From the NCBI GenBank assembly GCA_029582155.1, contig CM055908.1, forward strand, positions 23,645,757 to 23,709,756: DNA of 64,000 nt, read 5' to 3'. Below are positions 7,231 to 63,534 of the stretch, piece by piece (within the stretch, counting starts at the first letter, position 1; every line of letters begins with the position of its first letter). The notes under the pieces are model-generated. The model worked only from the letters and a program-made list of their open reading frames with translations. It made no database searches and was not told where the DNA came from. A program made the position numbers and the translations under genes. Source of the DNA: Panopea generosa. Lineage: Eukaryota > Mollusca > Bivalvia > Adapedonta > Hiatellidae.

Positions 7231-7860
7231 TCAAGGGAGGCAATATGCCACTCAAACTCATACCTAGTATTATCTCCCCTGAGCTGCTGTATGTCCTGGC
7301 ATCAATGGGTCATGGAGATGAGATTGGTAAGTTTGCCTGCAACATTAATCACCAAATCAAGGGAGGCAATATGTCACTCAAACTCATACCTAGTATTATC
7401 TCCCCTGAGCTGCTGTATGTCCTGGCATCAATGTGTCATGGAGATGAGATAGGTAAGTTTGTCTGCAACATTAATCACCATATCAAGGGAGGCAATATGC
7501 CACTCAAACTCATACCTAGTATTATCTCCCCTGAGCTGCTGTATGTCCTGGCATCAATGTGTCATGGAGATGAGATAAGTAAGTTTGTCTGCAACATTAA
7601 TCACCATATCAAGGGAGGCAATATGCCACTCAAACTCATACCTAGTATTATCTCCCCTGAGCTGCTGTATGTCCTGGCATCAATGTGTCATGGAGATGAG
7701 ATAAGTAAGTTTGCCTGCAACATTAATCACCAAATCAAGGGAGGCAATATGCCACTCAAACTCATACTTAGTATTATCTCCCCTGAGCTGCTGTATGTCC
7801 TGTCATCAATGTGTCATGGAGATGAGATAGGTAAGCCTGCCTGCAACATTAATCACCAAA
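7231..7860 (+). repeat. FUOM: Five tandem copies of FUOM exon 1 with its 5' splice site (126-bp unit)
   Basis: Start codons at 7245, 7371, 7497, 7623 and 7749 are exactly 126 bases apart. Each unit holds about 14 bases of leader (TCAAGGGAGGCAAT), the 82-base coding part and about 30 bases of intron. Every unit has a donor at 7327, 7453, 7579, 7705 and 7831 (GTAAG). Units 3 and 4 have A instead of G before the donor, which would change the junction codon from Val to Ile. Copy 1 reads MGHGDEI; copies 2-5 read MCHGDEI. The 126-base length is a multiple of three and has no stop, so the array is a continuous 208-codon frame ending at 7871. Confidence 0.95.
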
Positions 7861-10800
7861 TCAACAAATAGCTTGGCAATTGACAAATGATGTGTTGAAC
7901 AGATGATTACAAAATTTGCTGTGGACAAATATGAGGTATAAAAAATAGTAATTTGTTGAATGATAAGTTTGTTCAGATATTCTTTTCTGTTTTTTTTTAA
8001 CCTCATATCAAATTTTACATCCCTTTTTCACCATGGTAACATGATTTTTGCTCTTAAAAAAGTCCTATCTAATTTGGTTTAAAATATTTTCAAAATGGTT
8101 CATAGGGGCTGTGATTTCTTGCTGCAGATGAGTAAAGGACTGATGTTAAAAAAAGTGACTTGTACTGGATTTTAACAGATACATCGATGGATTTATGAGC
8201 ATTTGAGGACTTCTTTTTTCAAAATAAACATGTTGTTACTGCACTGTTGTTGTTGTTTCTTTAAAAAAAAGCTTGTCAACCTACCAGTTATTATGCATTT
8301 TATGTGCAGATAGATTCTGGATATTAAAAAAACAAACTTTTTAGTTTTAAAAAAGGTTTTATGTGGAATTTGATTTTAACTTGGAAATCTAGACCTAATT
8401 TCATATAGAACAAAGAACAAAATTCAACTGTGTAGTGAGACCTTTATATATTGGTTCTATACTTGGTTAATCATTTAAAACAATATTATTGCAAGAATAT
8501 GGATGGAAAAGATACTGGCAAGGTTGTAATAATGGTATTTTGTGTATTTGACAGTTTTAGCAGATGCCCACTTTCCAACATCATCTACATGCAGACATGG
8601 TCCTAAGGAGATTAGAGCTGATGGTATGTGGATCTTTAAAAGTTTTTAATTATTCATGTCATGTATTTATTTTGCAGGTCTGAAAGCTTTTCTGGAGCAC
8701 AAATCCAAAACCATTCAAGGTAATTATTTTAAACTTTGTACACATGTCAACCAGTGGTCTATTCTAGACCACTAGGTTGACATGTGTACAAAGTTTCATG
8801 AAATTACCTTAAAGGGTTTTGGATAGACCAATAGGTTGACATGTGTACAAAGTTTCATGAAATTACCTTGGATGGTTTTGGATGTGCCATTTGCTATTGA
8901 GGAGTTTTTATTTTCAATAATGTTAGCTCACCTGAGCCAAAGGCTTACAGGTGAGATTTTGTGATCACCCTGTGTCCGTCATTTACTTTTGCTTCAAACA
9001 AGTTCTACTCCTAAACTGCTTTTGACCAAATTTGGTGTGAAGCATTGCTACATTAAGCTCTCTCAATTTGTTGAAATCATGACCCTGGATAAAATTTATT
9101 CCGCACCTAGGAGCTGATTAGTTTTTTTCAAAATTTCAAAATTCTACACTTTCAAAAGTGCCGGGCCTGGAGCTGTGATATTTTGCATGTAATATCACCT
9201 AATCTAATCAATATCTCTCAGGTTTGTTCAATCAACGACACTAGGATCAGAATTGACTCCGCGACTTTTAAGTTTAACATTGAAAATTTTCATTTAAAAA
9301 ATTTGAAATTTCAAAAATCTTCTTCTCAACAACTGCGGTTACACGTCTGACTATCAATCCAGGGGTCGTTAGTTTGAATCCCCCGCCCTGCAACAGTCTC
9401 CGTGATGATTGATATACGACATTGCGTCTCATTATCATTCGTCTCTCACCACTGATTCAAGTGGGAAAGTTATCAGTTACTTGTGGAGACGGGGTGTGCT
9501 CGAGTACTGGTTAATCCCAGGAAACAGTGGTTAGGTTAACTGATCGTCTGTTAGCCCTCGATGGCATAAAATTGACGCTAAATATTCAATCAATCAATCA
9601 ATCAATCTCAACAACTGATCAGACTGACATATTTGTTTATATTTGGTATAAATGATTGCTATGAGTAGGTGTTTTAAGTTTGTTTGAGTAAAGGAACTAG
9701 TATTCATTGGGGCCCAGTATTTTTTTTTACATAATATACTATGGGATAACAGGAAATAATGTTTTCCTCATCTATTTTTGTATTACTCAAAACATCTTGG
9801 TATCTTGGGCATTGTTTGGTCACTACAACAGAGGCTGGGTTCAGTTAAGGAGATTTAATACACATTTTGGTCAGTAGGAGCCCAAAAAGGGATACAAATC
9901 TTATTTTCGATTGTGGTTATTATTACTTTGACATACCATATCATGTTATTCTAGTATTTCTTGCCAGGCCCTGTTAGCTCAGTCAGTTACGCCTCTGACT
10001 ATCAATCCAGGGGTCGTGAGTTTGAATCCCCGTCTGCCACAATCTCTGTGATGGTTGATATACAACATTGTGTCTCATTATCATTCATCTCTCAATCACT
10101 TACTTACGGAGATAGAGTGTGCTCCAGTACTGGTTAACCTTTCAGGATCCCAGGAAACAGTTGTTAGGTTTACTGATCGTTTGTTAGCCCTCCATGGCAT
10201 AAAAATGATGCTAAATATTCAATCAATCTAGTATTTCTTTGTGGAAAGAAACAACTGCAAGTACTTCTTAATTATGAAACAGCAAACACATGATAAAGGA
10301 AGTCTTCTTGTTGACTTCATTGACAAATATGACAATACATGTACTGGTACTAAGTTAATGAGGGTTGATCAGAATGTTTGTAGGGCTGTGTTTATAAGTA
10401 AACATTTTGGGCCATTTCTGCTGTATCATCTTACTAATATATTTAACATGAGAATTTACTAGTTGGTGGTGAAGACTCATTTTAATTAGTTTTTTTGTGT
10501 CAGATAATTGTACAATAAAATACGGTCATGAGGTCAATCTCAATACTTATCCACCATCTGAGATAATTAGATAATCTGGTCAGTAGAAGCTTTGTTTTTG
10601 TATTCAGCTGAAAGAAATCTAAAAGTGCCTGAATAAAAGGTTATTGATGTAGGTTGTTCTATGAAAGTAATGTGACAGTGTTTAAAAGTTTCTATAGAGC
10701 TTAATTTTTATTTTATCTCGCCAAAATTAAACTTGTGCATAACTCTCTTCATGAATACAGTACTTGAGACAATATATCTAACTGTGTGTTTGATTTGTGC

Positions 10801-13800
10801 ATCCTGTTGTGAACATTCTTTTTGGTTGTGGTCAGCAGGATATATCAACGTAAGTTCTGCTTACAAAGAACTTGTAGAAGTCGGCACTCTCATGTTATTT
10901 CTCTTGTCTGTGTATTACATGTATATAACAAGTATTGTTTGATTGCAGGTCTGGGTATACCAAGTTTGCTGGAAGCCATACTGACATTATTTCCTCTTGA
11001 CACTTACGTCTCACAACCAGTAAGTTATAGTATATCCCTTTACTCCATAGATACCAATCACACAACACCTTTGAAAACAGTGCAATCTGAACACTTCCTG
11101 CACTGTTTTCCACTCTGTCAGTTAATATTAACATAATTCACCCAATAATTCAAAAGCCTTCTATATTAGAGGTGTCAAAAGGTGTCTATATGAAGTATAG
11201 GGTTAAACTGCATAACAGACATACTTGTACATGCAATCCTATTTCACATCAGATACAAATTTTTCATCAGAGGGGACAATACATGTAGGTGTATGTTTGG
11301 TCTGGTATATGTCCAGAAAGATTACTGAAAAGCATCCAAGCTAGGTTTGTGAAACTTTGCATGTGGATAGAGGGTAATAAAGAGATAATGCAGGTCATTT
11401 TATTTTTCAGTCGGACATAAATTGTGGTTGCTATGGAAATAAAATAGGTAAAATTACAAATATACTGGTAACCTGGATCCTGTGGTAACAAAAAGTTTTC
11501 AAACTACATTTGTGAAACTTAGCATGGCAGTGTAGACAGTGGGTAATAAGGAGATCATGCACTTCATTTAATTACTTTTTCAATCGGACAGAAATTGTGG
11601 TTGCTATGTATTGCTTGCAATACAGCAGTGTCTTGTTCTTTATAGTACTGTTTTCTTTATAAATGCAAAATTTCCTTTCATTTTGAACTTTGGCACTTAC
11701 TAGCTCCATAACTAGTGTTCATAATTTATGTTACCAGACACAAAATAAAGCTTCTTGTATATTCGTGTATCTTGCATTCCCTACAGTATGAAACAGTGTG
11801 ATTTGGCAGCATCTTGATGAATGGGTTATCAGGGCACAAGCTTGTACCAGGTAGCAGCTGTTCAGATAATTGTATATTTTATGTTTTATTAATGAACAGG
11901 GTAATCAATACACTATACATATGTAGATGTAAATTTAAATTAATTACATGCTGCCAGCTTTATTCCTTAATTAATGTGCATTGTAATTTGTAGGTAGCAA
12001 TAATGGACAGGGTACCAGAAGACAAGGCAAAGGGTCTGCAAACACCAATCTGGACTGAGTACCAGCTGATAGTAGACAGGAAAGAGGATACACAGGTTTG
12101 TGATTTCTCAAGGTTTAGACAGAATTGACTTTTATTTCTCACATAATATAATGACAGCAATACCATGCTGTGTATTTTTTTTCTTGTTGTGAGAATAAAT
12201 TCAAAGTAAATATAAAAAGTCAAAGTAAAGTGTTTGTTTATTATAATGTCACCCTTATTGAAGGCCCAGCCACAAGGACTTATGAGACACCTTAAGGTTG
12301 TACAAAGTTACTTCCCGAAAGCTATCCTTGCCAGAGGTCAGGCTGTTATACATTCGGTATCCCTCAATTTAACTAGCTGCTGGGTGAGCAACCGGTTGCA
12401 TCAGAAAAGAACTTTCACAGGGATTCAAACCGTATATATATCTAATAGTTTATTGTAAAAAATTCATCCCGGCATGTAGACCGTCACACTGGCGTGTGGA
12501 CAATCACTGTGTCATTTCATATTTTAAATGCCTCTAAAATGCTTATTTTCAAAGTCAAAGTGACATGAACATTTCTTAAATGCTTCTTGTGCAATATTTA
12601 AAATACATTTAATAAGGAGAACAGCAGAATATAAAGTGGGAAAGTAAAACTACCTTTAAACAGTCAGGTGGTCGCATACTGGTAACAGAAGAAGGTAGCA
12701 CAAATGAATTTAGTATAAGAAACATGTTTTTGTAGCATTGCTTGTGAAAGTTATTATCACTATCAATTTCTTCTTGAATAAAACCATCATGGCTCTGGCC
12801 ATCTTATATTATGTACATTCGGAATAAAATCTTAACATTCATTCTTCAAAAAACATAAAAATTGCATTTATTCAAACACCCACCGTCACACATGTCAATG
12901 ATGTAATTTTCAGATTAACATTGAGAAGGTTGAACGATTCAAGTTTTATGACCGTGCAAAGACAGCCTATGCAATAGTGCATACTGGGTAAGTTTTGTGG
13001 AATACCGGTAACTTAAGCCTGCATGTAGATACACTTTGAGTTGCAAATAAAAGCAAGTGCACTCTTATCTTTCTCAAAGTAGAGCAAATTAGAATTATGA
13101 GAAGGATAATTACTATTTAAATAGAGCATTTGATACAGTTCCATAAAGATATAAACCTGAGATTATACCACACTTGGATGACGGTGGTGCACTTTATTGC
13201 TAGAGTTCCATTCCCTGTAGTAAAACAGTTTGTTGAGAATACTTCACCTCCCTCTGAGGTAGCCCAATAGAAATATCTTGTATTGAATATTACTAAAGAG
13301 ACAAAAAACACAAAATTAAAGCTTGTTTTGGTAATAAATGCTTGATAATGAAATTATAAATTGGATAAAGTTTAGAACATATACAAGTATGAATTCTGAT
13401 TGCCCAGTGTTGGACTTCCGTCAGACTGGTTGTTAATTAATGTTAAGTTTATATGTGCTTCAGTACTCCCAGTAATGATTGAATCTTGGCCAAACATACT
13501 CATTACTTGTATACCAGAAGCTCTTAGACATGTTCTTGAAATGGTCAAATTGGACGATTTACGACTGATTAGAGCATTGACCCTTGAATCATAAAAAATT
13601 ACATGATTTGACCTTGTGTGTACTTAAACACACTGGTTTTTCTTTTGATCTTAAGCAAATTGAAACATAGTTATATAACCGTAAGCTCTTTAATTACTTT
13701 AGTTAATGATAGAGTTATTGCCCTTGAATTATAAAGAAATGTTTTATTTGACCTTGTGTGCTATCTTAATTAAGCATCACTGTATATTTGGTCTTGGCTT

Positions 13801-19897: not shown

Positions 19898-19925
19898 TCC
19901 CTATGATACGTGTAATAGTCGACTG

Positions 19926-22900: not shown

Positions 22901-25900
22901 AGGCAATTGGTAAAATGAAATATACATATACTATGTATGATGTGACACATTAACTTGCCAAATTATCATAAAAAATTCATCTACAAAACATGAACTAAAG
23001 TGGGATATGCACACTTTCTATAGTGTCCACATTTTTAAATGCTTTATACTTTCTGTGTTTGTAGGAATAAATTGATAAAATTTTGTCTGCTAACATCGTG
23101 TACACTACAATGCTGTAGTAAAAATGTGTCCTTAAAGATTTATTTGATAGCATGTGCATTATGTTTTTCTTACGTTATATTATTATAGCCACTACATGTG
23201 TGTTGAAATGATAAAGTACATATACCTACAGTACAGTAATATGATGTATAAGATTTCCTTTATTTTGATTATGATGTTGGCTGAAAGAAGACATGCTGTT
23301 GGAATGGTTCTGAGCGGCGAATTCAAGATAGATTAACAGTAATCTTTAACAATGTTAAAATTTTCAGTCCGTAAAGAGCAGTATATGGCATCCCTCATCT
23401 TTCAAAGTTGCAAAAATATTGTAACTGATGTTGAAAATCAGTTTGGTCAATAGGATATAACACTGTAATTGTTGTCATTTGTTTCAATTTTTCATTACTA
23501 TATCTTGAGTTTAGACCAACACTTTACCTAAGTGAACATGTGAAAAGTGTACATAGCAGTTCTACATACTTTTGTTATACTGGTTTTATTTACATCCAAT
23601 AAGAGATCTCCTTACCTCCCCTTTACTGTGTTATGAGATATCTCCTTACCTCCTCTCTACTGTGTAATAAGATATCTCCTTACCTCCCCTATACTGTGTA
23701 ATAAGATATCTCCTTACCTCCCCTCTACTGTGTAATGAGATATCTCCTTACCTCCCCTCTACTGTGTAATAAGATATCTCCTTACCTCCCCTATACTGTG
23801 TAATAAGATATCTCCTTACCTCCCCTATACTGTGTAATAAGATATCTCCTTACCTCCCCTATACTGTGTAATAAGATATCTCCTTATCTCCCCTATACTG
23901 TGTAATAAGATATCTCCTTACCTCCACTCTACTGTGTAATAAGATATCTCCTTACCTCCCTTCTACTGTGTAATAAGATATCTCCTTACCTCCCCTATAC
24001 TGTGTAATAAGATATCTCCTTACATCCCCTATACTGTGTAATAAGATATCTACTTACCTCCCCTATACTGTGTAATGTGAGGTCTCCAATGTTTAGAGGA
24101 AATATTGGTCTGCCAATACTGTCCAATGGTATTGGAGGAACCACATGCTTCCCTCCTGCAATTTTTTTCTTAGGTTTGGCTTTCATTCCAAGAGCTAAAA
24201 TAAAGATGGAGACAGATATTAAGCAGTCTATAAAATAGCCAATGTTTTTGGAAAGAAAGTCCTGGTATATAGCTTACTATAATTCTGCATCATTAAATCA
24301 CGCTTGAAGTCCTTCTGGGTGAAACTGGTACATGTGGTTAAAGTGTCTTGCTCAAGGATACCATACAAGACAGTGGCAGGGATCAAACTGACCTTGTGAT
24401 CTTAGGTTGAATTCTTCACCACTAAATCATGTGGTCCATGTAATACATACATGTAGTGTATGAGGGTGCTAAGAAAACCACAAGAGCCAATTACAAAATA
24501 TACAATGTTGTGCATATCCACATGTAGTTATTTTTGTACAATTCTGAATTCTTTTTACAGATTGTGGCTGCAGGGTGGTTACGGGTGTTAACCACTTTCA
24601 CGCATTGTGGAACTTAGGAGGATGACCACAAAAGCCTGATTAGAACTGCTTCCTTCTGTAACTTAATGGCATGGCCATCTTTCTCAGTCTTTGGACTGAT
24701 CTGAGCTTAGACTTACAACCTTGAGAAAAAAGTGATCATGAGACAGCACATTTTATTGCTTGGCCTAGATTTATATGCAAGCAACTATTTAAAATTCTAG
24801 CACAAGCATATAGGTGATATGTCATTTCAATCAAAGCAAACAATATCTACATTAACTGAGCAATCTGCAGGTAAATTTGGGGGAATCCTGGGTATTACAT
24901 TACATATTTTTCTAGCCCTTCTCCTTTTCGAGTAAGTTAATCAATATTAGGCCACCCTTTAAAATTTGTTTGTTTGACACTTCTGATGGCCGACCCATAC
25001 CATTTATGGGTTGGTGGGTAGGTAAATGTATTTTTTTTGTAATCGATCAGAGAATATTTTTAAGGTCACAAGTTTATTTTGACTGAACACCAAAATGAAA
25101 GAATTTTGATTTAGGACTTATTCATATATATGTGATATGTGAGTAAGCAGACTTACATTCCAACATGTCTTGTGTCTGCTTCTTCCTGTCACCTGCTGGG
25201 GAGGGTATAATCTTCTTCTTGGCCTTCACTTTGATCCCTGTCATCATCTCATCTGTAGAACTCTTCAGAAATGGAGTTGAAATATGCTTCACAGGCTGGT
25301 TATCTGTCAACGACTGGTAGTGCAGCAGTTTACGCAGAAGAAACCTGGAACCATTTAGATGGTTTATCTTTTTACTCAAAGCATATTTTGTAAGTTGAAA
25401 TAAGTTTTGATCGTGCAAACACAGCTATTGCACCCTTTTGCTGCCCACTTTGACACAGTGAACCAATTTGAGTAACCAATCAATTCTGTGAAATGTCACT
25501 GAATTCCAGCCAATGGTTGCCAAGAAATAGCAACCACAAATAATATATATGAAAAATTCAATGGGACATAACTCATTGAAAAATTACATTTTGCGCAACA
25601 TGCCGCTAATATGCACAACTAAGCTTGGTACCAGTCACCTTTGTGAAGTTTGATTGAATTCCAGCCAATAGTTGCTGAAAAACAGTGATCACAAAAATTG
25701 TCCACAGTCGGTCGGACGGTCGGACGGACGGACGGACGTACAGACTGTATCTGGGGGTATAATAACAAAAATAAATGAACTTGTATTTTTCATTTATGAT
25801 GTTGCCTTGATATAGACTTTTCAAGTTATTACAGTATCCAGATATTTGCAATATTTGTCACATTTCCATATTTCATTGCCGAAGCAGCCACAATATTGAT

Positions 25901-28900
25901 CCAACCTAAACATAGAATAACATGCATAATCTCTTTATTGCTCTCTATCACTGTGTCAAGTCCATGAATTAAACTTACACACTTTTTGACCATCTACATG
26001 TACATGTATATATTGGCACCATTTTTTCATATTTTTGTTACAAAAGCGGTGATTTCAAATAACTTAACATAATCTCCTCATTGCCGTCAGTCACCCTGTC
26101 AGGTTTCATAACACTAACTTAAATACTTTTTAATTTATCACAAGATCCAGATATTGACACTATTTTTCATATCTTTATTTTCCATAGCAAACAAAATTTT
26201 TGTCCGACTAAAAAATAAAAATGCATAATGGCCTCATCATCCTCTGTCAGATTGTCAATTTTCAAGACTCCATCATAAGTACTTTTTAAGTTATGGCAGC
26301 ATCTAGATTTTGCGGATGTACATCGTTTGGAAGGAAGGATGGATGGAGAGTTATTCTAAAATCCCCTCAGGTGGAACTAATAAATGGATTTATATGAAAG
26401 ATGTTTATTCAATACTAACATATGTATGTAAGTTACAAATTATTAGAAATATTCAACACTCTCTGAGTTTCTAGAAATGAATATTTATGGGGATATTCAG
26501 TATGATAAAATCCACTGAGAAATGGGACTACTTTGAATATAAGGCCGATTGAAGGTCTACCTTCGTTCTTCCCGAGCTCGTGCTACTTTTTCTTCCTGTC
26601 TTACGACCTCATCACACACTGTGGCATTCATCTGTGAATGGAAACTACATGACAATATATGGTACAAACAAGACAAACATGACATGTCGGTAGTTTCCCA
26701 GTAAGTCTCACATGTAGCATTATGTACACAAATATTTTACCATTTATCAAAACAAAAATATCTGATATCTGATTTATTTTAACGAAACAACACTTTTCGA
26801 ATAAGACTCTAAAGACTCTATATATATATATAAATCAGTGCTAGAAATCACAATAGGTTTACAAAAAATTTATATTGCTAGGCAAAAAAGCAGAATTAGG
26901 GTTTAGCCATGGTTTTACACATGATATAGTAAAGCAAGACTTCATTAAAGAGGGACACGTGATTAAAACTAACAAAACCTGAAATTATATGTGACATTTA
27001 CCCACAACAGTGTAATGTTTTAATTCAAATGATTATGTTCAATTTACATATAAAATGTTTGTTTACAAATTATATGTAGTACTTACATATGACACACATA
27101 TTACTTACAAATGACATGTGATATTTACATATGACAAACACACGTTACTTACCAATGGTATGTGATATTTCCATATGACAAACACATATTACTTACAAAT
27201 GACATGTGATATTTACATATGACAAACACATATTATTTACCAATGACATGTGATACTAACATATGACATACACATATTACTTACAAATGACATGCGCTAT
27301 TTACATATGATATGTATGCACTTACAAATGACATGCAATATTTACATATGATAAACACATATAACTTACAAATGACATGCAATATTTACATATGATAAAC
27401 ACATATTACTTACAAATGGCATGCAATATTTACATATGACATACACATATTACTTACAAATTACATGCAATATTTACATATGATATGTATGCACTTACAA
27501 ATGACATGCAATATTTACATATGATAAACTCATATTACTAACAAATTACATGCAATATTTACATATGATATGTATGCACTTACAAATGACATGCAATATT
27601 TACATATGATAAACTCATATTACTAACAAATGACATACAATATTTACATATGATAACACATATTACTTACAAATGACATGTGATATTTACATATGATAAA
27701 CACATATTACTTACAAATGACATGTGATATTTACATATGATATGTATGCACTTACAAATACCATCTGTTTAACATATTTTCGTAGGTATTTCCATTTATG
27801 GTAGTAAGGATCATTTGAGGCATTCTGTGTTCCCCGCTGTTTATTGGTTTGTTGACGCTTTTTGTATCCCATAATACACCCCTCTCTACTATAAACAGAT
27901 ATTATCATTATTCATTAATAATAATGATAAAAAATAAATTTGCTAGGAAAGTCAGCTTAAGATATTTCATTTTATAAATTTATACTAAATGACACATTTC
28001 TTAGTATCAAGACGGTTTCAGTTAAATATAAAGTGTATGCTCAACAAAGATACATTCAACCTGTACCAGACATTAATTCATCGTAATGTATAAATGCAAT
28101 TTACAAGTAAACAGTTAAGTATTTTTTTATAAAAAACAATTAAAGTGAATAAATTGTACATTTTATGTTAAAGTTTAAACAAGATTCTAGATCTGAACAA
28201 ACTCGAAACCCCTTCTCATACAGACCATTTACATCAAATATGAACAAATTTGACTGGTTTGTTAAGAAGATTTTGGAAATGCAAAATTTTATTCCTTTTT
28301 GGTTCTCTGCTAATCCACTTTCAAGGACCCAATCAGAGTCTCAAATATTATGACTTAACCATGCTCCGAACATAAGACGAAGTAATAAAATATTCCAAGC
28401 CAAATTTAGTGAAAATCTGTTCAGCAGTTCCAGAGAAGAAATAAGAGTGTGTATATTTCACACTCATTAACAATCAGTGTGAACCATTTCAGTGAAATGT
28501 TTTAGTTTATCTTCTAGAGTGTGTTCATGTTCTTTAAAACTAAGAAGACAACATTGTAATATTCTAGGATATAATATATAAATTTACTAATGTACATGTG
28601 TACAACTGTACCTTGTTGTAGGTGTATTAAGAAGGCTGGTTCCACTTGCTGTCATTGTACTGGTACCCACACTGCTACTGGATGCAACCTTTGGTTTAAG
28701 AACATGAATAAATTACTTATATTACTACCTTTCATTCAAGTGATAAATTTCATATTTAATGCTGCCTTGTGCATGTTATAGATTGCTTTATCATAAGGTT
28801 CTAGTTCAAAAGCTAAGAGCATTATTATAATAAGCTGGCATAGTTTATACTCTATTTTAGGTAGATTGCGAAGAAAGCTTAAAGCCTATGTGAACTGCTC

Positions 28901-40800: not shown

Positions 40801-43800
40801 ACGGAAGTCCCCATGAAAATTAATGATGTCACAGTAGACATGAAACTTGTTATGACTAATTAAAATTAAACAAATTCCTGACTATTTTATGAAAATGTTT
40901 TTATTAAATGGAGACTCTTTTGCAATATTTATATACCATAAAAACATTTTTGTTCAGAAAATGTCACAGTTAGAGAATCAATAAAAATCATTTGGTTTGT
41001 TTCTTTTTATGCAGCACCCGTCATCTAGATACACTGTAGATGGGGAGGAGTTTGACATCCTTGATGATGACCTTATTGAAAAGGTCAAGGTTGTGAATAA
41101 CAAAGGTCAGTATTCTGCTTCTTGTGAATATTGTTGTTGTTAATTGTTATCTTCTCTGACAAAAAGTCGCATGACTGATTATAGGAAAAAACACTAGAAA
41201 ATGAAATAGTCTAACTTGTCACAAATAGTATTGTGACATTGTTAATGAACAAAAATGGATACTTGATTAAAGTTGAGTTCAGTGTGTACTTTGTGTTTGA
41301 TCAACAAAAGGGCCTCATGTCCTACTTATTGGTCTAAAATAGGACAGTTTTGTCTTTTATATGTTCCCTTATTTAGGGGGAATATTAAATCAACTATAAA
41401 CAGTTTGTATGTGTTTGCATTACAGAATACAGTGCAGACAAGGAGAACATAGACACAAATGGAGCATACAGTGATGTGGCTGACAAAGTGTCTGACAAAG
41501 ACAGACCCAAATCTGTACAGTTTGACCTTGATTCTGGCAAGTCAGAAACAAGACAAGAACGAATAGAGCGCAGATCCCTTTCAGGTACAGCATGTTTGTC
41601 TCGCAATCTTTAGTTTAATCATTTTTATGTTTCAAACATAGCCTGTACAAGGAAGATACAAAATTGCTTTTAACACTGCGTTGGTGGTCTAGTGCCTCGC
41701 ATGCAGAAGGTTTTGGGTTTTATTCATACCAAAGACTAGGAAAATGGTACAAAAAGCTTCCTCGCTTGGCATTTAGCATTTAGAGGATAGTTGATGGTCT
41801 GGTCAGCCAAGAGTATAATGTGACTGGTTTGGGTATCATACCATGTGTCTGTGGTAAGGTTGGTCACTATATATAATGTGACTGGTTGTGGTATCATACC
41901 ATGGGTCTGTGGCATGTATATAACTGTGGTATGGTTGTTCACTATATACTGTGAGAGTTGTCACCTGTATAAGTAGCATGTTTGGTTCATGCGTTTAAAA
42001 ATGATTGTATATATCAAATACTGTTATGTGAATGATGTTATTCTATTTAGAGTTGGAATCATCCAATACAGGTAACACAGTAACACTGCTATCTATTTTC
42101 TTGTATATGTAACAGATAAATCTTCTGTCATACTACAAAACATCCCTTATAAGGTAGGTTCTGTCTTCCCAATACTGTACTGGGTTTATCACAAGGGCTA
42201 GTGGCAATATATATATTCTATATCCCTATATATAGTATAATAAAAAATCTTTATTATACTTTATACAGGGATATAGAATATATATTGTCACTAGCCCCTG
42301 TGGGTTTTATACTTGAAGAGTAGACTGAAGGAGTGTGCTTGATAAAAATAGATACATGTATTACCTCTATTTGTCTGCCATTAATTGTTAATATATATCT
42401 GGTATATGTATTGAATTATTCTGTGAATGCCAGATGAACTAATAATAAGCAGTATTTTGTAATTATAAGCATGTAAAGAGTCAAACATGTGTGAGCGGTC
42501 ACCTCTATTAAGCAGCCACTTGTCTTAAGCATTCACATTTACTATTTTCTCATTTCTATGCTTTCAGAGCACATTAACCTGTATTAAGCAACAACCTGTT
42601 TTCAAAGGCCACCTTTGCTTCTTGTCTTGACTGGCTGCTTAAGACAGGTTTGGCTAAGTATATAACTGCTGTCAAATTTGCACTTTAGAAAAGACAGTCT
42701 TCATGTAATCATTAAGATGGTCGCAAAGTCATCTTTTCAACCAAATGATATTAAGTGAATATTCTACCTGTCATTTGAACATTTAAGGTTTTCCTGACTT
42801 ACTCCATCATAAAACACTGGCTGTTATATACATTATAGAGTTATAAAGTAGTAAAAAGAGTGTGACCCCCCAATACAAGCCAAAAACATGATACACTTCT
42901 GTCTAGTTCATGTCAAATACACCATGCATTTCTCTCAAATACAAGCCAAATACATGATGCACTTCTTTCAAATACAACCTAAATACATTCTTTCCAGTAC
43001 AAGTCAAATACACCATACATGTCAAACACAATCTAAATACTTGATAAACATCTGTCCAATACAGTCTAAATACACCATATATTTCTGTCAAACGCAACAG
43101 TACACTTTTGTCAAATACACCATACATTTCTGTCAAATGCAACAAGACACTTCTGTCAAATACACCATACATTTCTATCTAATACAAGTCAAATACACCA
43201 TACATTTCTGTCAAATACAGGCAAAATGTACCATAACTTCTGTCCAGTACAAATCAAATACACTATACACTTCTGTCCAGTACCAGCAAAATACATCATT
43301 CACTTTTGTCCAGTACAAGCTAAAAACACCATAATACTTTTGTTGATTATACTTCTGTTAAATTTTAGCCAATATTTTTTCCCTCTATTTGCAGCAAATG
43401 CATTCAGTGGCACAGATGTCCATCGTAACATACCATCTGTGAGGGTTCCTAACATTTACCAGGGTGTCCATACGGAGGAGGAGAAGCGCCGTGCTCGCAG
43501 TCAACAAGCCATGTATCGTAGACTCTTCATGGACATAGAAAGGGAGCAGGTGAAGGAAAATCTACGCAGACAAGAACATCGTAAACGTATACAGAAGTAT
43601 GTGGTTTGGCATCATAAATGTGCTCAGTAGGCTCAGAAGTATGTCTTCAATATTCTCAACTGACCAGTAGTCAAAACTAGGCTTTCAATATCCTTAACTG
43701 ACCAGTAGTCAAAACTAGGTCTTCAATATCCTCAACTGACCAGTAGTCAAAACTAGGTCTTCAATAGCCTCAACTGACCAGTAGTCAAAACTAGGTCTTC

Positions 43801-46800
43801 AATATCCTCAACTGACCAGTAATCAAAACTAGGTCTTCAATATCCTCAACTGACCAGTAATCAAAACTAGGTCTTCAATAGCCTCAACTGACCAGTAGTC
43901 AAAACTAGGTCTTCAATATCCTCAACTGACCAGTAGTCAAAACTAGGTCTTCAATATCCTTAACTGACCAGTAATCAAAACTAGGTATTCAATATCCTCA
44001 ACTGACCAGTAATCAAAACTAGGTTTTCAATAGACTCAACTGACCAGTAGTCAAAACTAGGTCTTAAATAGCCTCAACTGACCAGTAGTCAAAACTAGGT
44101 CTTCAATAGCCTCAACTGACCAGTAGTCAAAACTAGGTCTTCAATATCCTTAACTGACCAGTAGTCAAAACTAGGTCTTCAATAGCCTCAATTGACCAGT
44201 AGTCAAAACTAGGTATTCAATATCCTCAATATTCATTGTAAAAGTATACAAAACTAGGTTTTTAGTATAATTGTAAAAGTATACAAAACTAGGATTTTAA
44301 TATTGTTATTGTACACAAAAGGTTTTCCATGGCCAAAAGGTCTAAGCAACTGTCTCACTAAGTTTGCTTATCTTTATAATTTTTTTTTTTATTATCTTAA
44401 TTTTTAAAAAAAGATCTTCAAATCCTTCTCAAGGACTGCTTAACAGATTGTGCTTGTAGTTTCTTAGAAAAGAATATTATATGTGAGTAACAAACATTTG
44501 TTTGTTAGAAATTTAGATGTCAGAGTGACTTAGCCAAAAAGGGACCATAACTCTTGTAATATTTTATCAATGTTGACTAATACGGAAATTGAGCTGTATT
44601 TTATAACTATACAGCTAAACAATAACTATTAGTTAAATGCATAGACTCTTCCAGAAGTTATTCATAAGAAATCAATTAGATGAACATATGCACAAATGGA
44701 CAGACAGTGGTAACAGTTAATGTCTCTTCACCATTTGAATGAATGAATGAATAGGGTGTTACGGCATACCAACACATTATAGGTTATTCAATGCCAACAG
44801 GAAGGAAGATTCCAGGTTCACTTTACATGTACAAAAACAACAAATTAACATACAAAATTTAAAAAAAATACACCAACAAATGAATATGCAGAATGAACCT
44901 AGAACCTTGATACCTGCAGAACTGCAGAGTTCAGCAAATTCTATCATATTACTCAAATTGTCACTTCTTATGACATGCATGAGCCACAGTGATCCTATTC
45001 TTGCCCATCACTCATATGGCTCCCTGAAACCACACAGGGGTTGATAATTTAACCACAATAGTGACCATGACAAAAAATGATAAAATGAACATGACACCCA
45101 TTCGGAGGATTCCTACCCCTCTGCAGAGATCGGCAGTGATTCTATTCTTAGCCAGAACCACACGGGCTTTCACCATTTGAATAAATCCAATAATAAATGA
45201 GCACTTGAGCAAGATCCGCTTTTCCAGAGATTTTGGGATATCTACTTTATTGTTTGCCATCAAGTATACTCAAGAACGGAAACATTGGATTTGTACTGAG
45301 TAAACCATATAAGACATTTAGGGTGCGGGTTCGAGTACAGTTCAGTCCAAATAATTTATATGAGAAAGATTGCCAGTTACTTGGTGGTTCTACTTAAATT
45401 CATTCTGAGGTCTTCATCCAACAGCAAAACTGATATGCTATGTATAACTTGTCATTTGTTAAAAATGGTGTTATACCCAATTAATTTTTTTTTATATATA
45501 TAATTTGAAAGGACTTGTTTTAAAATATTTAAGTTTTAGCGTTTAGCCTCAACAAATGGAATCGCTTCAGTTTTCAAAATTGTGTCGCTCTTATTTGTTA
45601 AAATAATTTAATAATTAAGTTGGTTCTTAATTATAAAGAAGTTCTTCATCACTCCGCACGCATGAATGACGTCGATGTCAACTTTCAAATGTTAATTATC
45701 TCAGAATTCATCGTAGCTCCGCCCAGAGTCAGTCAAATTATGTCAAACTGTCAGTCAAATGACATTTAACACTAAGCTCCCTGCCGTCGCGCCCTTTGGG
45801 TTTTTTAATTGTTCAATTTTTACTTAATGAATACTTTTAAACTATTACAAAGAAGAGATTTTGGAATTAATGTACAGTAGACCCTTATGAATATATATTG
45901 ACATTAGTATGTTTATTGTTCCATAGATTGAAGAAAGACAAAGAGGAAGACAGACTACGAGAGGAACAGCATTCCCATCAGCTCATTGAACCTCGTGACC
46001 CTGTTACCGGGGAAACAAGTATTGAGGCAATTGAGAGGGAGGTACAAGAACAAAAGTTTATACGAGAAACAATGAGGGAGCACGAGCGCAAAGTGAGAAA
46101 AGCAAGAGAGATGGAGAGGTAAACCTACTGACGAAGTTCAAATTTTTAAATATCCGCAGCAGTGGTCTAGGGTTAGAGTGTCTGCCTTGCATGTGTGAGG
46201 TTGTGGGTTCGATCCTCGGCTGGTCACACCAAAGCCTTGTACTGTAAGCTACCTCGCTTGGCGCTTGGCATTTAGAGGATTGTTCTAGATCTGGTTGGCC
46301 CAGTGTCGGTATAATGTGACTTGGTTGGGTATCATACCATGTGTCTGCAGCATGATACTCCAGTGTGGCAGCCCATAGAATAAAATGTTAACAACAATGC
46401 TAAACACAAAACAACAACAACAACAAAACAATTTATTAAATATTCTGAGTCTGAAACCACAGTCCCAATGTGGTGTACCTTTTGTTAAAGTATTATTGTA
46501 ATATATTACTTTTGCTTGCATTTTGTTAAACTGGTTTTATAGGAAATATATAAGGATTTATTGAAATTTTAAAATTGGCAGAAAACTTTTTTTCTAATAT
46601 ACATGTAGCGTGCATAAACTCACGGAGCAATTTAATATCACAATAAGGATAAATATCTAAACAGGTCAAAATAATATATTGAAAAGGAATTTTCTAACTT
46701 GACTGACATGTACATGCCCAGGTTAGACTAAAATAGCGTCGGCTTAAAATTGCTATGTATTTTGTGACATGTTAAATGAATCCTGTAATTTAATTTTAAT

Positions 46801-55193: not shown

Positions 55194-55233
55194 CACTGTA
55201 CATGTATCTTCATTAGCATTTTTCATAGATGTT

Positions 55234-55239
55234 TTTAAT
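55234..55239 (-). terminator. HPS3: Possible HPS3 polyadenylation signal
   Basis: ATTAAA on the minus strand about 46 bases after the predicted stop codon. Confidence 0.3.
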
Positions 55240-55284
55240 TTTTCATTTCGTTGTATTCACTGTAACATGGCAACGGAGCTTTTT

Positions 55285-56160: not shown

Positions 56161-56222
<62 letters not shown>

Positions 56223-59200
56223 TCGTTACCACACTCCTTTATTAAATGGAACATCAAAATGAATGAGTTTGTTAGTTTCTATTACATGAATATATATGTC
56301 ATTTTGGGGGTCATTTTGGGGGTAGTGGTGTGAAAGTAATATATCTTTTAAATAGTACTCAATTTCAGATATCTAAAATCTGAAGTGGCTATAATAAACC
56401 GAGGAAGATGTTTGATATAGGCATAGTGCCACCATTGCAAAAAGGAAGTGCTTCCGTGGGGTAGTTGCATAATGGCGGTTATAAATAATCCTCAATTCTT
56501 CTTCTTTAAAACTGCATTTTCCTTATTTTAATGCTCATTTTTTTATTTGAATGGCATTATTGATGTATTTTGAACATTTTGATAGCATTGTCATGTTTGA
56601 ATTGTGAATTTAGAAAAAAAATGATGCTTGGAAATTGGTGTATGAATTCATGATTCAGTAATATATCTTTTAAATAGTACTCAATTTCAGATATCTAAAA
56701 TCTGAAGTGGCTATAATAAACCGAGGAAGATGTTTGATATAGGCATAGTGCCACCATTGCAAAAAGGAAGTGCTTCCGTGGGGTAGTCGCATAATGGCGG
56801 TTATAAATAATCCTCAATTCTTCTTCTTTAAAACTGCATTTTCCTTATTTTAATGCTCATTTTTTTATTTGAATGGCATTATTGATGTATTTTGAACATT
56901 TTGATAGCATTGTCATGTTTGAATTGTGAATTTAGAAAAAAAATGATGCTTGGAAATTGGGGTATGAATTCATGATTTCAGAAGTCTACTTTCACTTTGT
57001 CACCAGTGTACACACAGAGCAGAAAAAAATCTCTTATATGACGCATGACCCCTACTTTTCTCATCATATTTTGATAGTGCAGAGGTTAACAAACAGTAAA
57101 ATGTAGATTTCACTTCTTTCATTTGGGACCCTCTATGAATGACAAGCCTTCAAACTTTTATTATTTACTATAGAATAAAGAACAAAAATCAATGGTGGGA
57201 TTACACCTATAGGCTATAGGCATAGTGCCACTATTGCAAAAAGGAAGTGCTTCTTTAAAAATGCATTTTCCTTATTTTAATGCTCATTTTTTTATTTGAA
57301 TGGCATTATTGATGTATTTTGAACATTTTGATAGCATTGTCATGTTTGAATTGTGAATTTAGAAAAAAAAAATGATGCTTGGAAATTGGGGTATGAATTC
57401 ATGATTTCGGAAGTCTACTTTCACTTTGTCACCAGTGTACACACTGAGCAGAAAAAAAATCTCTTATATGACGCATGACCCCTACTTTTCTCATCATATT
57501 TTGATAGTGCAGAGGTTGACAAACAGTAAAATGTAGGTTTCACTTCTTTCATTTGGGACCCTCTATGAATGACAAGCCTTCAAACTTTTATTATTTACTA
57601 TAGAATAAAGAACAAAAATCAATGGTGGGGTTACACCTATACTGTCTTCGCAAAAATTATACCTTGCACCGTTTCTGTGAGTCTATATCGTCTAGGCATA
57701 TGCAGTGATTAATTTATAATGAGATTACGAGCGTCTAAACGACACAGCGCGCCGGTGCGTAAGAATTACTTTGTTGTGAAAATCACCAAAAAGAGCGCGA
57801 AATCCGATGCCGATTTTTTGGACATAAAAACTTTTGAGTCGGCAGTTAAAATATAGGGTCGGTCGGGTAACCGGAAACAAACATCTTTTTTTTTTTTAGG
57901 CCTTAGTGAAAAAGCCATAAAAAGAAATCTCTATGAAGATCATTTAAAGGGAATTGATCAGAATTTTTTTAAATTTTGAAATTGGCTAAAAACATATTTT
58001 TTCAATATATTATGCCTATATAATTCTCACCAGCACCGTATTACCAGAAGGACATCTTTTTAAACATGCCAGAATAATATACTGAAAAGAGATTTCCTAT
58101 TTTGGGGTACACGCCTAGGTTATAGATCCTGATTAAAAAAGCTGTACTCCCTTTAAGGCTGTTATAAATACAGTATTCTCTTCATTTTTATATTTTTACT
58201 TAAATCTTTACATTAATTATTCACTTAAGAGGTGAATTTCAAAGATGAGAAAACATCTACAATTATACAAGGCGATTATGCACTATTTACCCGTTAATGC
58301 CTTGTAATATTTGGTCCTGTTGTTGTCATCCTCGCTGCAGGATAGGAGTGGCCGTAATCTATCTAGCAGGTACTTTAGGAGGAACTCCCACTGGAAATGA
58401 CACCTTAGTTAATTAGCCTGACCAATAAGGCCACACGAAAACATCTATTCGTTAGAAGATTTTTCATTAAAAATTACTTAAAAACTTCAGACAATTTTGA
58501 TTGGTTATTTATTTATCATATAATCAATATCAAAGGAAGCATATTTAGTTTTACTGGATATAGGCTAAAACCATGTTCATCTGGCTGCTTTTCTTATATC
58601 TAATTCATTGAGTATCAAAGTAATGTCCAGGGGTTGTGAGTTCAAATCCCCACCCAGCCACATTCTCCGTGGTTATTGGTATAGGATATCGTGTCTCATA
58701 GTCATTCATCTCTCACTGCTGATTCAAGTGGGAAAGTTATCAGTTACTTGCGGAGAAGTGTGTATTCTAGCACTGGTTAAACTTCCAGTATCCCAGGAAA
58801 CAGTGGTTAGGTTTACTGATAATTTATTAACCCTCAATGGCATAATAATGATGCGAAACATGAAAAAGTAAAGTAATACAATACATGCATTGTCTGCAAG
58901 CATAGATGAATGATTGAATGAATGAATGAATTTAGAAACTAATCTTCCTCAGTGCCCTCTATCAATATTAAAGTGTTTTTTAAGCTCACTAGTACACTAG
59001 AGTACAAGAAGTGAGAAATAGAGCAAAACCGGAGCTAAACTAAAAAGCATAAACTGGATAATCACAACGAAGATGATGTTCTGTTTTTATGAATAAACTG
59101 GGAACCAGAATGAGAGTAGTTAAGTGTTCGCTGTTTTGTTTTTTCTTCTTTTTTCAGTTACAGTTTACTAACAATAATAATTACATGTGGAGCGTGTGGT

Positions 59201-62200
59201 CCAGTTGTAGAACATCAGACCCAGAATCAGAGGGTCGTGTGTTAGATCCTCCCCCACGGCCATGTGTGGTGTCCTCCAGCAAGGCACTTTATCCACATAT
59301 GCTTAGTAGTGGTTCTACCCAGGAAGACCCGGAGTATGATTTGTCTAACTTGTTTCACAATCGAGGTAAAATAAATAAGTTCAAAACAAAAAAAACAATT
59401 ACATGTACTACCTGTTCCCAGTTATGTTTAATGACACATCCAGCAAATTCTGCCACCACGCCAGGGTGGTTATCAATCAATTTCTTTATGGCTTCCTTGG
59501 TGTCAATTTTAGCCATACAGAGAATGTATAAGGAGTCATAGAAGGAAGTTGTCGGGTGCTTGTCTAGTAAAGACAAAACCTTCTCGCATAGAACCTCTGT
59601 GGTGTCATGGGAACACAGAACAGACTAAAAATATAAAATATGAAAAAAGAGGCTTACACATAATGTCAAATTTTGCAATTAAATTAATAAATGAAACAGG
59701 GAATAATTTAACTTTATATGGGTTTGTTTATCAGACACAAGAGGAAGATTTGTAGTCTAGTGGAACAGCCTCCACACTGAATAAGGAACATTGTAGGATA
59801 GATACCTGATACCGGGTCATCACTATCCAGTCTTACAGAGTTTGTTATTTCTACAAACAGAGCAGATTATGAAAATCAATTCTAACAGTGTTTTTTTCAA
59901 AAACAGAACAGGTCATGAAATCAAGTCTGACAGAGTCTGTTTTTTATATAAACAGAACAGATTATTTCTTACAGAATCTGTTTTTTTACCACAGAGCAGG
60001 TCATTAAAATCAATTCATAAGAGATTGTTTTTTTCCTCAAACAGAGCAGGTTATTTACTAAATTCATACAGTCTTTTTTTTTCTCTCTCAAACAAAGCAG
60101 GTAACAAAAAGCAGTTTAAACAGAGCTTCTTTACATAAACAGAGCAGGTAATGACAATCATTTTTTACAGTACCTGTTTGTTCACAAACAGAGCAGGTCA
60201 TGATCAGTTCTTATAGAATCTGTTATTTTCACTCACAGAGCAGGTATTGATTGTCGTTTCTTACAGAGTATGTTATGACCACAAACAGGGCAGGTATTGA
60301 TCAGCGTTTCTTACAGAGTAGGTTATTGTAACAAACAGAGCAGGTATTGATTACCCTTTCTTACAGAATATGTTATTGTCACAAACCGAGCAGGGATTGA
60401 TTATCGTTTCTTACAGAGTATGTTATTGCCACAAACAGAGAATGTAATAAAAATCAATTCTTACAGAGCCTGTTTCTTTTCAACAGAGTATGTCATGAAA
60501 ACCAATTCTTACAGAATCTGTTATTTCCACAAACAGTGCAGGTCATGAAAATCTATTCTAAAAGGCTTGGGTTTTTTTCACAAACAAAGCAGGTCATAAA
60601 ATTAAATCCATACAGTCTGTTTTTTCCACAAACAAAGCATTTCATGCAATCAGCTCATATAAAACCATTGTTGCCCCAAACAGAGCTTGCAGAGCAAATT
60701 AATTTTACAGAGCCTGTTTTTTTCCATAACAGGGCAGATCATGCAAATCAGCTCATATAAAAACCTTTGTTTCTACAAACAGAGCAGGCCATGCAAATCA
60801 GTTCATACAAAAACCTTTGTTTCCACAAACAGAGCAGGCCATGCAAATCAGTTCATATAAAAACCTTTATTTCCACAAACAGAGCAGGCCATGCAAATCA
60901 GTTTATATAAAAACCTTTGTTTTCACAAACAGGGCAGGCCATGCAAATCAGTTCATATAAAAACCTTTGTTTCCACAAACAGAGCAGGCCATGCAAATCA
61001 GTTTATATAAAAACCTCTGTTTACACAAACAGGGCAGGCCATGCAAATTAGTTTATATAAAAACCTTTGTTTACACAAACAGAGCAGGCCATGCCTATCA
61101 GTTCATATAAAAACCTTTGTTTCCACAGAGTCGGGCAAGGAAATCAATTCTTACCAAACCAGGTGTTTTCACAAAAAGAGCAAGGTGAAACAGTCGGTTT
61201 TTACTGTTAGTTTTAATAAACAGACCATGTTATATCAATCAATTCTTACTGTTCCATCCAAGAGCAAAACAAATATTTAGTAAAAATTACACTTTATTCT
61301 AACCTGAAGTTTCAGCAAATCTTCATTACACATAAAACAACTACAGATCTCCTCAGTTTTCTGACACTGTAACAACTGTGACTGCTTCCCTGTTCTCCTT
61401 CCCCCAGCTGGTACCACATGGCGACATGTGACACTGATTGACTGGGAACCAGAGAAGGGGGGCATGTGATCCAACCAACCATGGCGACGTCCAAAATGGC
61501 CACTCCCTTTTGGCTGTGGACAGAATTTTAAATACAGAACAGCCTTAATAGAATTATTTATGGAAAAGAACTCTATAAGATTATATCTCTAATCCATAGT
61601 TATATTTAAAATGATTTGTATGTATATAAATTTGAATAAATAAATATGTTTCAACCAAAACAAATTGTGCTTAGCTAGATTATTGGCAGTGACATTCCTG
61701 TTACATACACAAACTGGCGTGACATTCCAGCAGAAAAACATCTGATAGCCATGAAGAATATTCATTAAACGCACACAAATGACCACCATTTTATAAAGAA
61801 TGATGTAAGATATTCAAAACAACAAATATGACATCAAGATTGCACGGCACATGATCCCAGAAAGTGCTGTACTAAAAATATTATGCATCACGGTATATTA
61901 AATCATATGTATTTCTGTGATATTGTTTTATAAAAAAAGGAACATAATTCATGAAAAAAATCTGAAATGCCTGACAATATGTTCAAGTAAACTTGGGCGG
62001 GGTGACAATAACAATTCTAATTACAACAAGGGGCATAACTCAGTTTAATATATTAACCGATTTTTATAACCTGTGGGATTCACACAAGGTACATTCCAGC
62101 AATAGTGATGGAGAGATGGACTTACAGATTTTATCAAACCAACCCAGTCAATTAAAAAAACATTATATCTAAATTTTCTTTTATGCCTGTATGATGCAAA

Positions 62201-63534
62201 GTCAATGTTCTAATGAAAGAATTCAAGAATAAAAACGCACATTGGAGAATCAGAATCAAAACTTCGAAGAATTTATACCAATCCCTGCATGTCAATGCTA
62301 TTATGCAGGATAAAGTGTACATACCAATCTGAACTTCCCTGTATGTATACACCTCCCTGCATGTACTACTATACCCTTCCCTGCATGTACAAGTATACCC
62401 TTCCCTGCATTTATACCCTTCCCTGCATGTACAAGTACACCCTTCCCTGCATGTATACCTGCATGTATACCCTTCCCTGCATGTACAAGTACACCCTTCC
62501 CTGCATGTATACCTGCATGTATACCCTTCCCTGCATGTACAAGTATACCCTTCCCTGCATGTATACCTGCATGTATACCCTTCCCTGCATGTACAAGTAT
62601 ACCCTTCCCTGCATGTATACCTGCCCCTGCATGTCAATGCTATCATGTAGGATAAGCATACATACCAATCTAAACTTCATCGATGCTGTGACCTGTCTAA
62701 TGGACGGTGGCTCCCACTCGGATAATCTCAGAAGATATATCTCGCACAGCTGTGACTGATAAAAACAATAAGCATTTTAACACTATAACCACCATTTCAA
62801 ACACAACATTTGCCTTTACCATTTTGGTCAATAGCTATACATACCATAGCTAATGTTATGTTTAATATATACATGTATAACCGCCTATAAATCAAGTTTT
62901 ATATTTGTTCTAAGTATCTTGCACCGGAATGTGGCCGGGTCAGCGAAATTTAAACCCAAAGTGCCTTTGTTTCGAGCAAACTAAACAACTACATCCCTTT
63001 GCTCTTGTTATAATTTTCATTGTAAATGGTTCAGCATATCATACTTTTTGTATCAATTGATTATAACCATGGTAATTTAAAAATTATATACATCCAGAAA
63101 CAACAAAAAAATCACCCAAAAAAATCACCAAAAATGTTTATTTCAAGACCTAAATGAAGGCATTTTTATTCCCCCCCCCCCCCCAAATGCATAATGGTTG
63201 AGATTTGTGCATTTAAACATCATATTCTATATAACACGTTTGCTTTTTTCATGCAGCAGGAGTGTGGCTGTGTCAACCAGAACCTGGTCGGGTTTTAGGA
63301 TCACCCAAAAAAACTACTCAGAACTTAAACGGTAAAGTTTAACTGATGAATGGGCTGCCTCTTCTAACACAATCTCATTCGAGACACCATGGAGCCTTAA
63401 CAGCTATGCTTTAACTGTATGAAAAAGTCTTTTATATAAACTTACCACAGCTTCCTCAAAACAAACTTTCCTACCAGCATCTGCAATGTAAGATTTTACA
63501 GTATTAACCAATAAATCAAGATTTGAAGGTCTCA
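55285..63534 (-). CDS. HPS3: HPS3-like BLOC-2 subunit, C-terminal six exons
   Basis: HPS3 is a subunit of BLOC-2, which with HPS5 and HPS6 directs cargo to lysosome-related organelles; role inferred. Exons in transcript order: 63534-63446, 62755-62666, 61513-61304, 59624-59412, 58390-58291, 55469-55285; GT-AG borders, phases join to 294 residues; the 5' part lies beyond 64000. Landmarks: LDLLVNTVKSYIADAG, YLLRLSEWEPP, SLYILCMAKIDTKEAIKKLI then DNHPGVVAEFAGCVI, WEFLLKYLLDRLRPLLSC, and RVLPGDGNFFFFMPYIKLC, which fits the VLPEDG..FFLPYL end of human HPS3. The acceptor at 63535 is weak; a later one at 63481 is an alternative. A Cys-rich stretch (CRHVVPAGG..., QKTEEICSCFMC) in the exon 61513-61304 has no counterpart that I recall in human HPS3. 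Introns carry a Harbinger-like element and two large minisatellites. Confidence 0.75.
55735..55965 (-). mobile_element. SINE (family B), nearly full length
   Basis: Minus-strand head with TGGTCTAAGGCGCCATCTCG and GGTCGTAGGTTCGAGTCCCG (A and B boxes), then the body. Best copy of this family in the window; in the last HPS3 intron, sense to the gene. Confidence 0.8.
56101..57902. mobile_element. Non-autonomous PIF/Harbinger-like element with internal duplications
   Basis: Left end GGCCTAAAAAAAAAAGGG and right end CTTTTTTTTTTTTAGGCC are inverted and continue as GTTTGTTTCC..GTTAC. Both sides abut TTA (56098-56100, 57903-57905), the 3-base target of Harbinger transposases. Inside, a 321-base unit (56337-56657) is repeated almost perfectly at 56658-56979, and a partial third copy at about 57212-57420; a second unit (56981-57212) recurs at 57412-57643. 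A pure T tract of 56 bases lies at 56166-56221. No transposase frame. Confidence 0.75.
58612..58862 (+). mobile_element. tRNA-derived SINE (family A), head truncated
   Basis: Starts at the B box (GGGGTTGTGAGTTCAAATCC) and continues through the family body to a weak tail; the A box is missing. Confidence 0.75.
59185..59390 (+). mobile_element. tRNA-like SINE (family C)
   Basis: GTGTGGTCCAGTTGTAGAAC and GGGTCGTGTGTTAGATCC (A and B boxes), then CCTCCAGCAAGGCACTTTAT and GGTTCTACCCAGGAAGACCC, ending AAAATAAATAAG. It ends about 20 bases from the donor of the HPS3 exon 59624-59412. Confidence 0.75.
59830..61250. repeat. 50-60 bp minisatellite in HPS3 intron, about 25 copies
   Basis: Every unit carries CACAAACAGAGCAGG. 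The left two thirds are diverged; from 60761 to 61120 the unit is exactly 50 bases (AAACCTTTGTTTCCACAAAC then AGAGCAGGCCATGCAAATCA) with eight near-identical copies, so this end is the youngest. Units on the minus strand include TCTGTAAGAA, a weak donor-like string, but do not match the adjacent exon. Confidence 0.92.
62283..62680 (-). repeat. HPS3: 54-bp array bracketed by copies of an HPS3 exon donor
   Basis: The centre (62336-62629) is built of CCCTTCCCTGCATGTACAAG and CCTGCATGTATACCTGCATG in 54-base units (ACAAGT at 62431, 62485, 62539, 62593). On its gene-proximal side is the real exon end (minus strand GAAGTTTAGATTG|GTATGT at 62678-62660). On its far side an about 52-base duplicate of that exon/intron border occurs (GAAGTTCAGATTG|GTATGT, 62336-62318), including the downstream GCATTGACATGCAGGG. 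Since 54 is a multiple of three, long false frames appear on both strands. Confidence 0.9.
63171..63184. repeat. Poly-C tract
   Basis: A run of 14 C in an HPS3 intron; no associated SINE head recognised. Confidence 0.7.

Follow-up and report, generated by a model that had tools for sequence, protein, structure and literature searches.

We identified intronic minisatellites that repeat the 5' splice site (donor) of the exon before them in a 64-kb stretch of a mollusc-like genome (G000:C15:23645757-23709756, hereafter the window; the assembly has 1.47 Gb in 39 contigs) and at further loci of the same assembly. The best reading is that these arrays are of the mirage kind known from amphioxus, now found in a mollusc-like genome. 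They probably arose when ordinary local tandem duplication chanced to span an exon-intron boundary. The observation is true and striking, and it is wider than first thought; there is no clear evidence for a special mechanism behind it.

Arrays in the window

We checked the arrays of the window with Tandem Repeats Finder (TRF) and by direct reading of the letters. TRF returns 52 rows in the window, which merge at periods of at least 10 into 20 arrays that make up 12.8% of it. The first-pass annotation had described arrays headed by an exon's own donor at FUOM exon 1 and in two TBRG1 introns, and both approaches confirm them. It had also described the donor of an HPS3-like gene as an array flank and CCDC15 as a weaker case, and these descriptions hold as well. 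The features are as follows.

7228-7864, plus strand: FUOM array, 5.1 copies of 126 bp, 97% matches (TRF)
23598-24076, minus strand: TBRG1 array a, 14.1 copies of 34 bp, 94% matches (TRF)
24058-24194, minus strand: TBRG1 exon that heads array a with its 5' splice site (exon predictor, FYRN)
27042-27759, minus strand: TBRG1 array b, TRF periods 44 and 85, 83-84% matches
62345-62624, minus strand: HPS3-like intron array, periods 24/54 bp, GTATAC/CATGCAGGG units
62616-62675, minus strand: HPS3-like exon end (62666) and donor, upstream bracket
62273-62334, minus strand: second, intronic copy of the HPS3-like exon end and donor, downstream bracket
43592-44229, plus strand: weak case in CCDC15, with exon end and donor repeated over 11 nt (43597, 43639)

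The FUOM unit consists of the complete first coding exon, start codon included, and 44 nt of flank with the donor. Its first exon copy is 82 nt long, from the ATG at 7245 to the exon end at 7326, and the first donor follows at 7327. This array is a five-fold exon duplication and hence more than a donor array. The identity of the gene is supported by an RbsD_FucU match (5.6e-12). A single open frame of 213 codons (7230-7868, plus strand) runs through the five exon copies and the intervening intron pieces. All extra donors lie at multiples of 3 from the first, so later donors would yield in-frame N-terminal repeats.

TBRG1 is identified by its FYRN (2.5e-27) and FYRC (2.3e-11) matches. The unit of array a joins the final ~16 exonic nt to 18 nt of intron (GTAAGGAGATATCTTATT), and the true donor GTAAGTAG stands directly after the exon end at 24058. 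The units of array b contain ATTT/GTAAGT, with ~4 exonic nt in the unit and the exon end at 27756.

At the HPS3-like gene, the exon end and donor bracket the array on both sides (52/62 alignment columns identical between the two copies), and the TRF array itself is without the true donor. The gene's HPS3_C match (5.9e-4) lies under the family's curated cut-off. The gene at 43592-44229, which we take to be CCDC15, shows a mere 11-nt match just ahead of an array of 15 x 38 bp that starts at 43643, just after the 11-nt repeat.

Elsewhere in the window, we noted by eye retroelement-like long open frames with zinc-knuckle and reverse-transcriptase-like stretches (4344-6635, minus strand). Tandem duplications of 322 bp and 430 bp at 56335-57641 have 97-99% matches and are apparently recent.

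Donor and acceptor arrays elsewhere in the genome

We searched the whole genome for three MAGGTRAGT motifs at 19-44-nt spacing and took loci from the matches listed for C1 and the opening 86.8 Mb of C2 (188 Mb). Seven loci of a dispersed family, two segmental duplicates and repeat hits within one array were left out before arrays were counted. For each of 17 loci, the start of the array was read by eye in the 10 kb around it. Among the matches listed, we identified 17 independent donor arrays, 7/17 of which begin at the end of an apparent coding exon. The pattern is not peculiar to this window.

The unit of the seven exon-headed arrays (L035, L036, L045-L048 and L051) takes in the last 6-39 nt of the exon. 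The gene has database support in 5/7 (L035, L036, L046, L047 and L048). All seven arrays listed here are exon-headed.

L035: ABCE1, 23 copies
L036: immunoglobulin-domain gene
L046: WBP11-like (Wbp11 just under the cut-off, match mostly on the neighbouring exon)
L047: RAD54-like
L048: BTAF1-like, 63 copies in 2.6 kb (PDB matches labelled 'Helicase-like protein')
L045: assigned from reading frame and splice signals only
L051: 73 copies, assigned from reading frame and splice signals only

The gene at L048 is presumably Mot1/BTAF1. Its array holds 61 donor copies at mostly 42-nt spacing (2729-5375), with 29/60 extra donors in frame, and the acceptor of the next exon (CCTTCAG/GTAAAA) resembles the donor context of the array.

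Four loci (L040, L042, L043 and L044) are borderline and were counted as not exon-headed. The index arrays of the other six of the 17 loci show no exon heading at the array starts that were read. A second array at L038 starts at an exon end called by our exon predictor. This self-trained predictor is weak (127 exons at >=18 bits vs 47 in reversed sequence) and serves for rough counts only; it did not call FUOM exon 1 or the TBRG1 exon at the head of array b as such. Exon-headed donor arrays total 11: three from the window, seven of the 17 sampled arrays and the one at L038. HPS3 is an extra case that has brackets. Of the 11, three are called solely from frame and splice signals or by the predictor. 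The unit takes in between ~4 and 39 exonic nt, or in FUOM the entire exon, and its register is not fixed.

The search also brought out arrays of other kinds. L042 carries two arrays of one 36-bp unit ~3 kb apart (1061-1469 and 4642-6810). An acceptor-like site lies ahead of the first, a possible exon-headed case. At L043, an array of 55 x 42 bp (4883-7211) stops just upstream of an opposite-strand exon, presumably acyl-CoA-synthetase-like. This array thus adjoins an acceptor, the AG of which is not duplicated. At L041, a 32-bp unit with TAAGGTAAGC recurs ~252 times over 8 kb (10-8054), and the predictor finds zero exons at >=19 bits in this 10-kb stretch. The dispersed family occupies seven loci on C1 and C2 (for example C1:47251479) and has CAGGTGAGTNAAACTTACC units that are donor-like on both strands.

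Acceptor arrays were sought with three TTTTNCAGG motifs at the spacing used for donors. Acceptor triples number 648 vs 371 for the reversed motif and single sites 80,577 vs 66,401, which corresponds to 0.0080 triples per single site (reversal 0.0056). We examined 9 acceptor arrays on C1 and C2, having left out a same-sequence relative and a duplicate. Only 1/9 (L055) is exon-linked, and in 2/9 the array ran past the stretch examined. The L055 array leads into an exon that matches ORC4 (ORC4_C 1.2e-11; PDB 2e-10). The opening ~15 nt of this exon belong to the array, so that the exon sits at the last copy. The matches listed also include a very large array, a stretch of >14 kb rich in TTTTACAGGTAACTACAACAGG units (G000:C3:41083900-41098294), where acceptor-like motifs have donor-like motifs right behind them.

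Origin of the arrays and choice of donor

The arrays were probably produced by ordinary local tandem duplication that happened to take in an exon-intron boundary and was tolerated, with no special mechanism. In this genome, where tandem repeats abound, slippage or unequal exchange would duplicate a segment across the boundary. The exon body would then stay joined to the first donor copy only (in an acceptor array, to the last copy). If this exon-attached copy is the one used, mRNA and protein would be unchanged, so the array could expand within the intron, up to dozens of donor copies. The duplication itself would be blind to splice sites.

A comparison of 13 units from 12 genes (78 pairs) reveals no strong similarity. 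The three best of the 78 pairs, by excess over shuffles, are a donor-like stretch, an opposite-strand 11-nt stretch and a loose gapped match. Array periods range from 24 to 126 bp. Since units are dissimilar, periods and registers vary and the end of the host exon lies within the unit, the arrays fit independent local tandem duplications.

The first-pass annotation had proposed that such arrays are tolerated since the upstream donor still wins. Gapless junctions, FUOM copy 1 and early stops support this proposal indirectly, while for the donor actually chosen in cells we infer the first from the sequence. First, conceptual splicing from the first donor to the next exon yields a protein that aligns with no gap at the junction in four genes: TBRG1 (FYRN, E 2.5e-27), ABCE1 (E 2.8e-70), the Mot1/BTAF1-like gene (1.1e-21) and the RAD54-like gene (8.1e-7). 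No extra exon sequence is therefore implied in these genes. Second, the RbsD_FucU match scores 29.6 bits with FUOM copy 1 and 24.1, 24.1 or 21.0 with copies 2-5, which have a Gly-to-Cys change within the MGHGDEI stretch. Finally, translation continued beyond the first donor would reach an in-frame stop after 60 nt or less in 8/11 arrays; the frame stays open longer in HPS3 (252 nt), FUOM (542) and the BTAF1-like gene (996). In 10/11 arrays, TBRG1 array a being the exception, no fewer than half of the additional donors reach the score of the first. Extra donors are mostly no weaker, and the choice among them is therefore not explained by strength; attachment to the exon may decide.

The data do not establish the earlier suggestion that tandem duplication is seeded by exon borders, as the donor ratio falls within the spread of five controls. 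We consider it unlikely that exon-intron borders or the 5' splice-site motif are hot spots of duplication. Triples per single site amount to 0.0246 for the donor and 0.0129 for its reversal. The control TAGRTGAGM gives 0.0259 (its reversal 0.0150), and the control GGATMTAGR gives 702/24,364 = 0.0288 (its reversal 0.0196). The donor ratio thus tops three of the five controls and lies under the clean control GGATMTAGR and under TAGRTGAGM, a poor control that is half donor-like (TAGGTGAGM). Triple counts overlap, with several per array, and are not independent. Distinct arrays read from the matches listed in the 188 Mb number 17 for the donor, 7 for its reversal, 10 for TAGRTGAGM and 8 for GGATMTAGR, where control arrays were counted by position alone with neighbouring hits merged and the exclusions used for donors were not applied. 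Per thousand genome-wide single sites, these counts correspond to 0.28, 0.12, 0.31 and 0.33.

Exon ends do not stand out among the arrays either. Single MAGGTRAGT sites outside arrays (234 kb) are real exon ends in 4/10 cases by eye and 5/15 by the predictor; the 10 are the 15 less five in one L042 array, and one of the four exon ends heads the second L038 array. The exon-headed share of arrays, 7/17, does not differ from 4/10. The variable exonic portion of the unit, with no set register, also speaks against hot spots. A local copy of the surrounding 30-mer (>=21 matches) occurs at 1/51 donors and 1/51 acceptors vs 139/600 random positions. By this test, local repeats are scarcer at exon borders than at random positions, a set that includes array interiors.

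Several observations weigh on the other side, against duplication that is blind to splice sites and tolerated. MAGGTRAGT triples are 1.99-fold more frequent than reversed ones (1,478 vs 742) despite near-equal single sites (60,007 vs 57,547, only 1.04-fold). The count of distinct arrays, 17 vs 7 reversed, has P 0.04, and the donor ratio exceeds that of three of the four controls that lack donor likeness. The base rate of 4/10 comes from a small sample of loci that were picked for donor arrays and are biased to genes. Three clear and two weaker cases lie within one 64-kb window, where 0.19-0.64 clear donor arrays are expected by chance if unit lengths add up to 601-1,025 bp across the 64 kb and donors number 20-40, a figure assumed rather than counted. 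The excess has P 0.001-0.007 (601-bp sum) or 0.012 (expectation 0.47), values obtained post hoc, since the window was chosen on account of its donors. The comparison of donors with acceptors, which the first-pass annotation had put forward, leans towards donors in the motif sample (7/17 vs 1/9 exon-linked) with P 0.19, and a donor excess over acceptors is possible. Among predicted exons outside index arrays (234 kb; exons wholly in arrays and retroelement-like ones left out), 3/50 donors and 0/50 acceptors lie in arrays, 1 of the 3 donor hits (HPS3 62353-62626) being an array artefact. In addition, the exon joins of WBP11 and TBRG1 array b match no family above the cut-off. Taken together, seeding at exon borders need not be assumed, and a donor excess of up to about two-fold is possible.

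It is very unlikely that the extra donors are used, be it as a splicing rheostat that depends on copy number or to add in-frame repeat extensions to proteins. Most extra donors are as strong as the first, and the 126-bp unit of FUOM and the mostly 42-bp unit of the BTAF1-like gene would keep the frame. Against such use stand the early stops in 8/11 arrays, the less than half of extra donors in frame in each of the ten arrays besides FUOM, and the altered FUOM copies 2-5 with their Gly-to-Cys change and lower family scores. Moreover, the available passages of PMC3087553 report that reverse transcription-polymerase chain reaction (RT-PCR) showed splicing undisturbed by amphioxus mirages. Were extra donors used, a choice among 5 to ~60 near-identical donors in FUOM and the BTAF1-like gene would give a protein ladder with 42- or 14-residue extensions, and other genes would give aborted transcripts dependent on copy number. 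Both would vary between individuals with the array, an outcome that we hold to be quite improbable.

We give almost no credence to copies of a mobile introner-like element that carries its own donor: every unit has a donor motif and seven donor-motif loci do form a dispersed family, but units are dissimilar between genes, periods vary and the host exon's own end lies inside the unit. No element sequence common to many introns emerged from the comparison of 13 units of 12 genes. An assembly artefact is scarcely credible, as tandem arrays are error-prone in assemblies but the copies differ privately (76-97% matches, four window arrays), many independent loci are alike and the 1.47-Gb assembly has just 39 contigs.

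Relation to mirages and other known systems

Arrays of this kind are natural experiments in donor choice by the splicing machinery when the candidates are almost the same; the BTAF1-like intron offers 61 copies of its donor. Consistent use of the first donor would mean that position, and not strength, is decisive, because the extra donors are mostly as strong. The arrays also call for caution with gene predictors, which may extend exons into them, as the predictor used here did in FUOM and HPS3.

Internal tandem repeats are described in human segmental-duplication genes, where they alter exon-intron structure (PMC2812944). In the passages available from that paper, variable repeats with units of 30 bp on average make exons or introns longer, and cryptic splice sites may become active through them. 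Minisatellite expansion within genes, with splice sites touched in some cases, is common to both systems. Unlike those repeats, the arrays identified here are intronic and leave the original splice site apparently unchanged.

Introns are also said to be gained through tandem duplication of AGGT segments, in a model attributed to Rogers. Tandem duplication likewise takes in the GT splice signal here; unlike in that model, it lengthens an existing intron, and no new intron was seen to be made.

The original paper on mirages in Adh3 is reportedly that of Canestro et al. 2002. The first-pass annotation knew of no description of serial donor arrays in bivalves, a remark to be corrected in the light of amphioxus mirages, which have the same structure according to the accessible passages of PMC3087553. 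Mirages are minisatellite-like tandem duplications of exon-intron boundaries in Adh3, globins, TnC and PGBD5, as far as the passages of two papers describe them (PMC3087553, PMC3902484). The same passages of PMC3087553 report that 5' and 3' boundaries are both duplicated in units of 10-160 bp, that Adh3 mirages show length and somatic instability while RT-PCR shows undisturbed splicing, and that mirages have been proposed as raw material for intron gain. A description of such arrays in molluscs was not found among the listed open-licence literature matches, and the passages on introns in a paper on gastropod hemocyanin introns contain no such arrays (PMC7931591).

The arrays identified here share several features with amphioxus mirages. 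First, a minisatellite-like unit lies across an exon-intron boundary (in HPS3 as brackets only). Second, both 5' boundaries and 3' boundaries (one case, ORC4) are involved. Finally, units carry AG/GT splice signals and vary in length, and the exon body sits at one end of the array. The instability and RT-PCR evidence belongs to amphioxus, whereas the arrays here are known from the letters of one assembly. In contrast to amphioxus mirages, they occur in a mollusc-like genome rather than a cephalochordate, were sampled across many genes and include donor cases with up to 71 donor copies. Mirages are extended from amphioxus to a mollusc-like genome, which suggests that minisatellite-rich, intron-rich genomes will show them.

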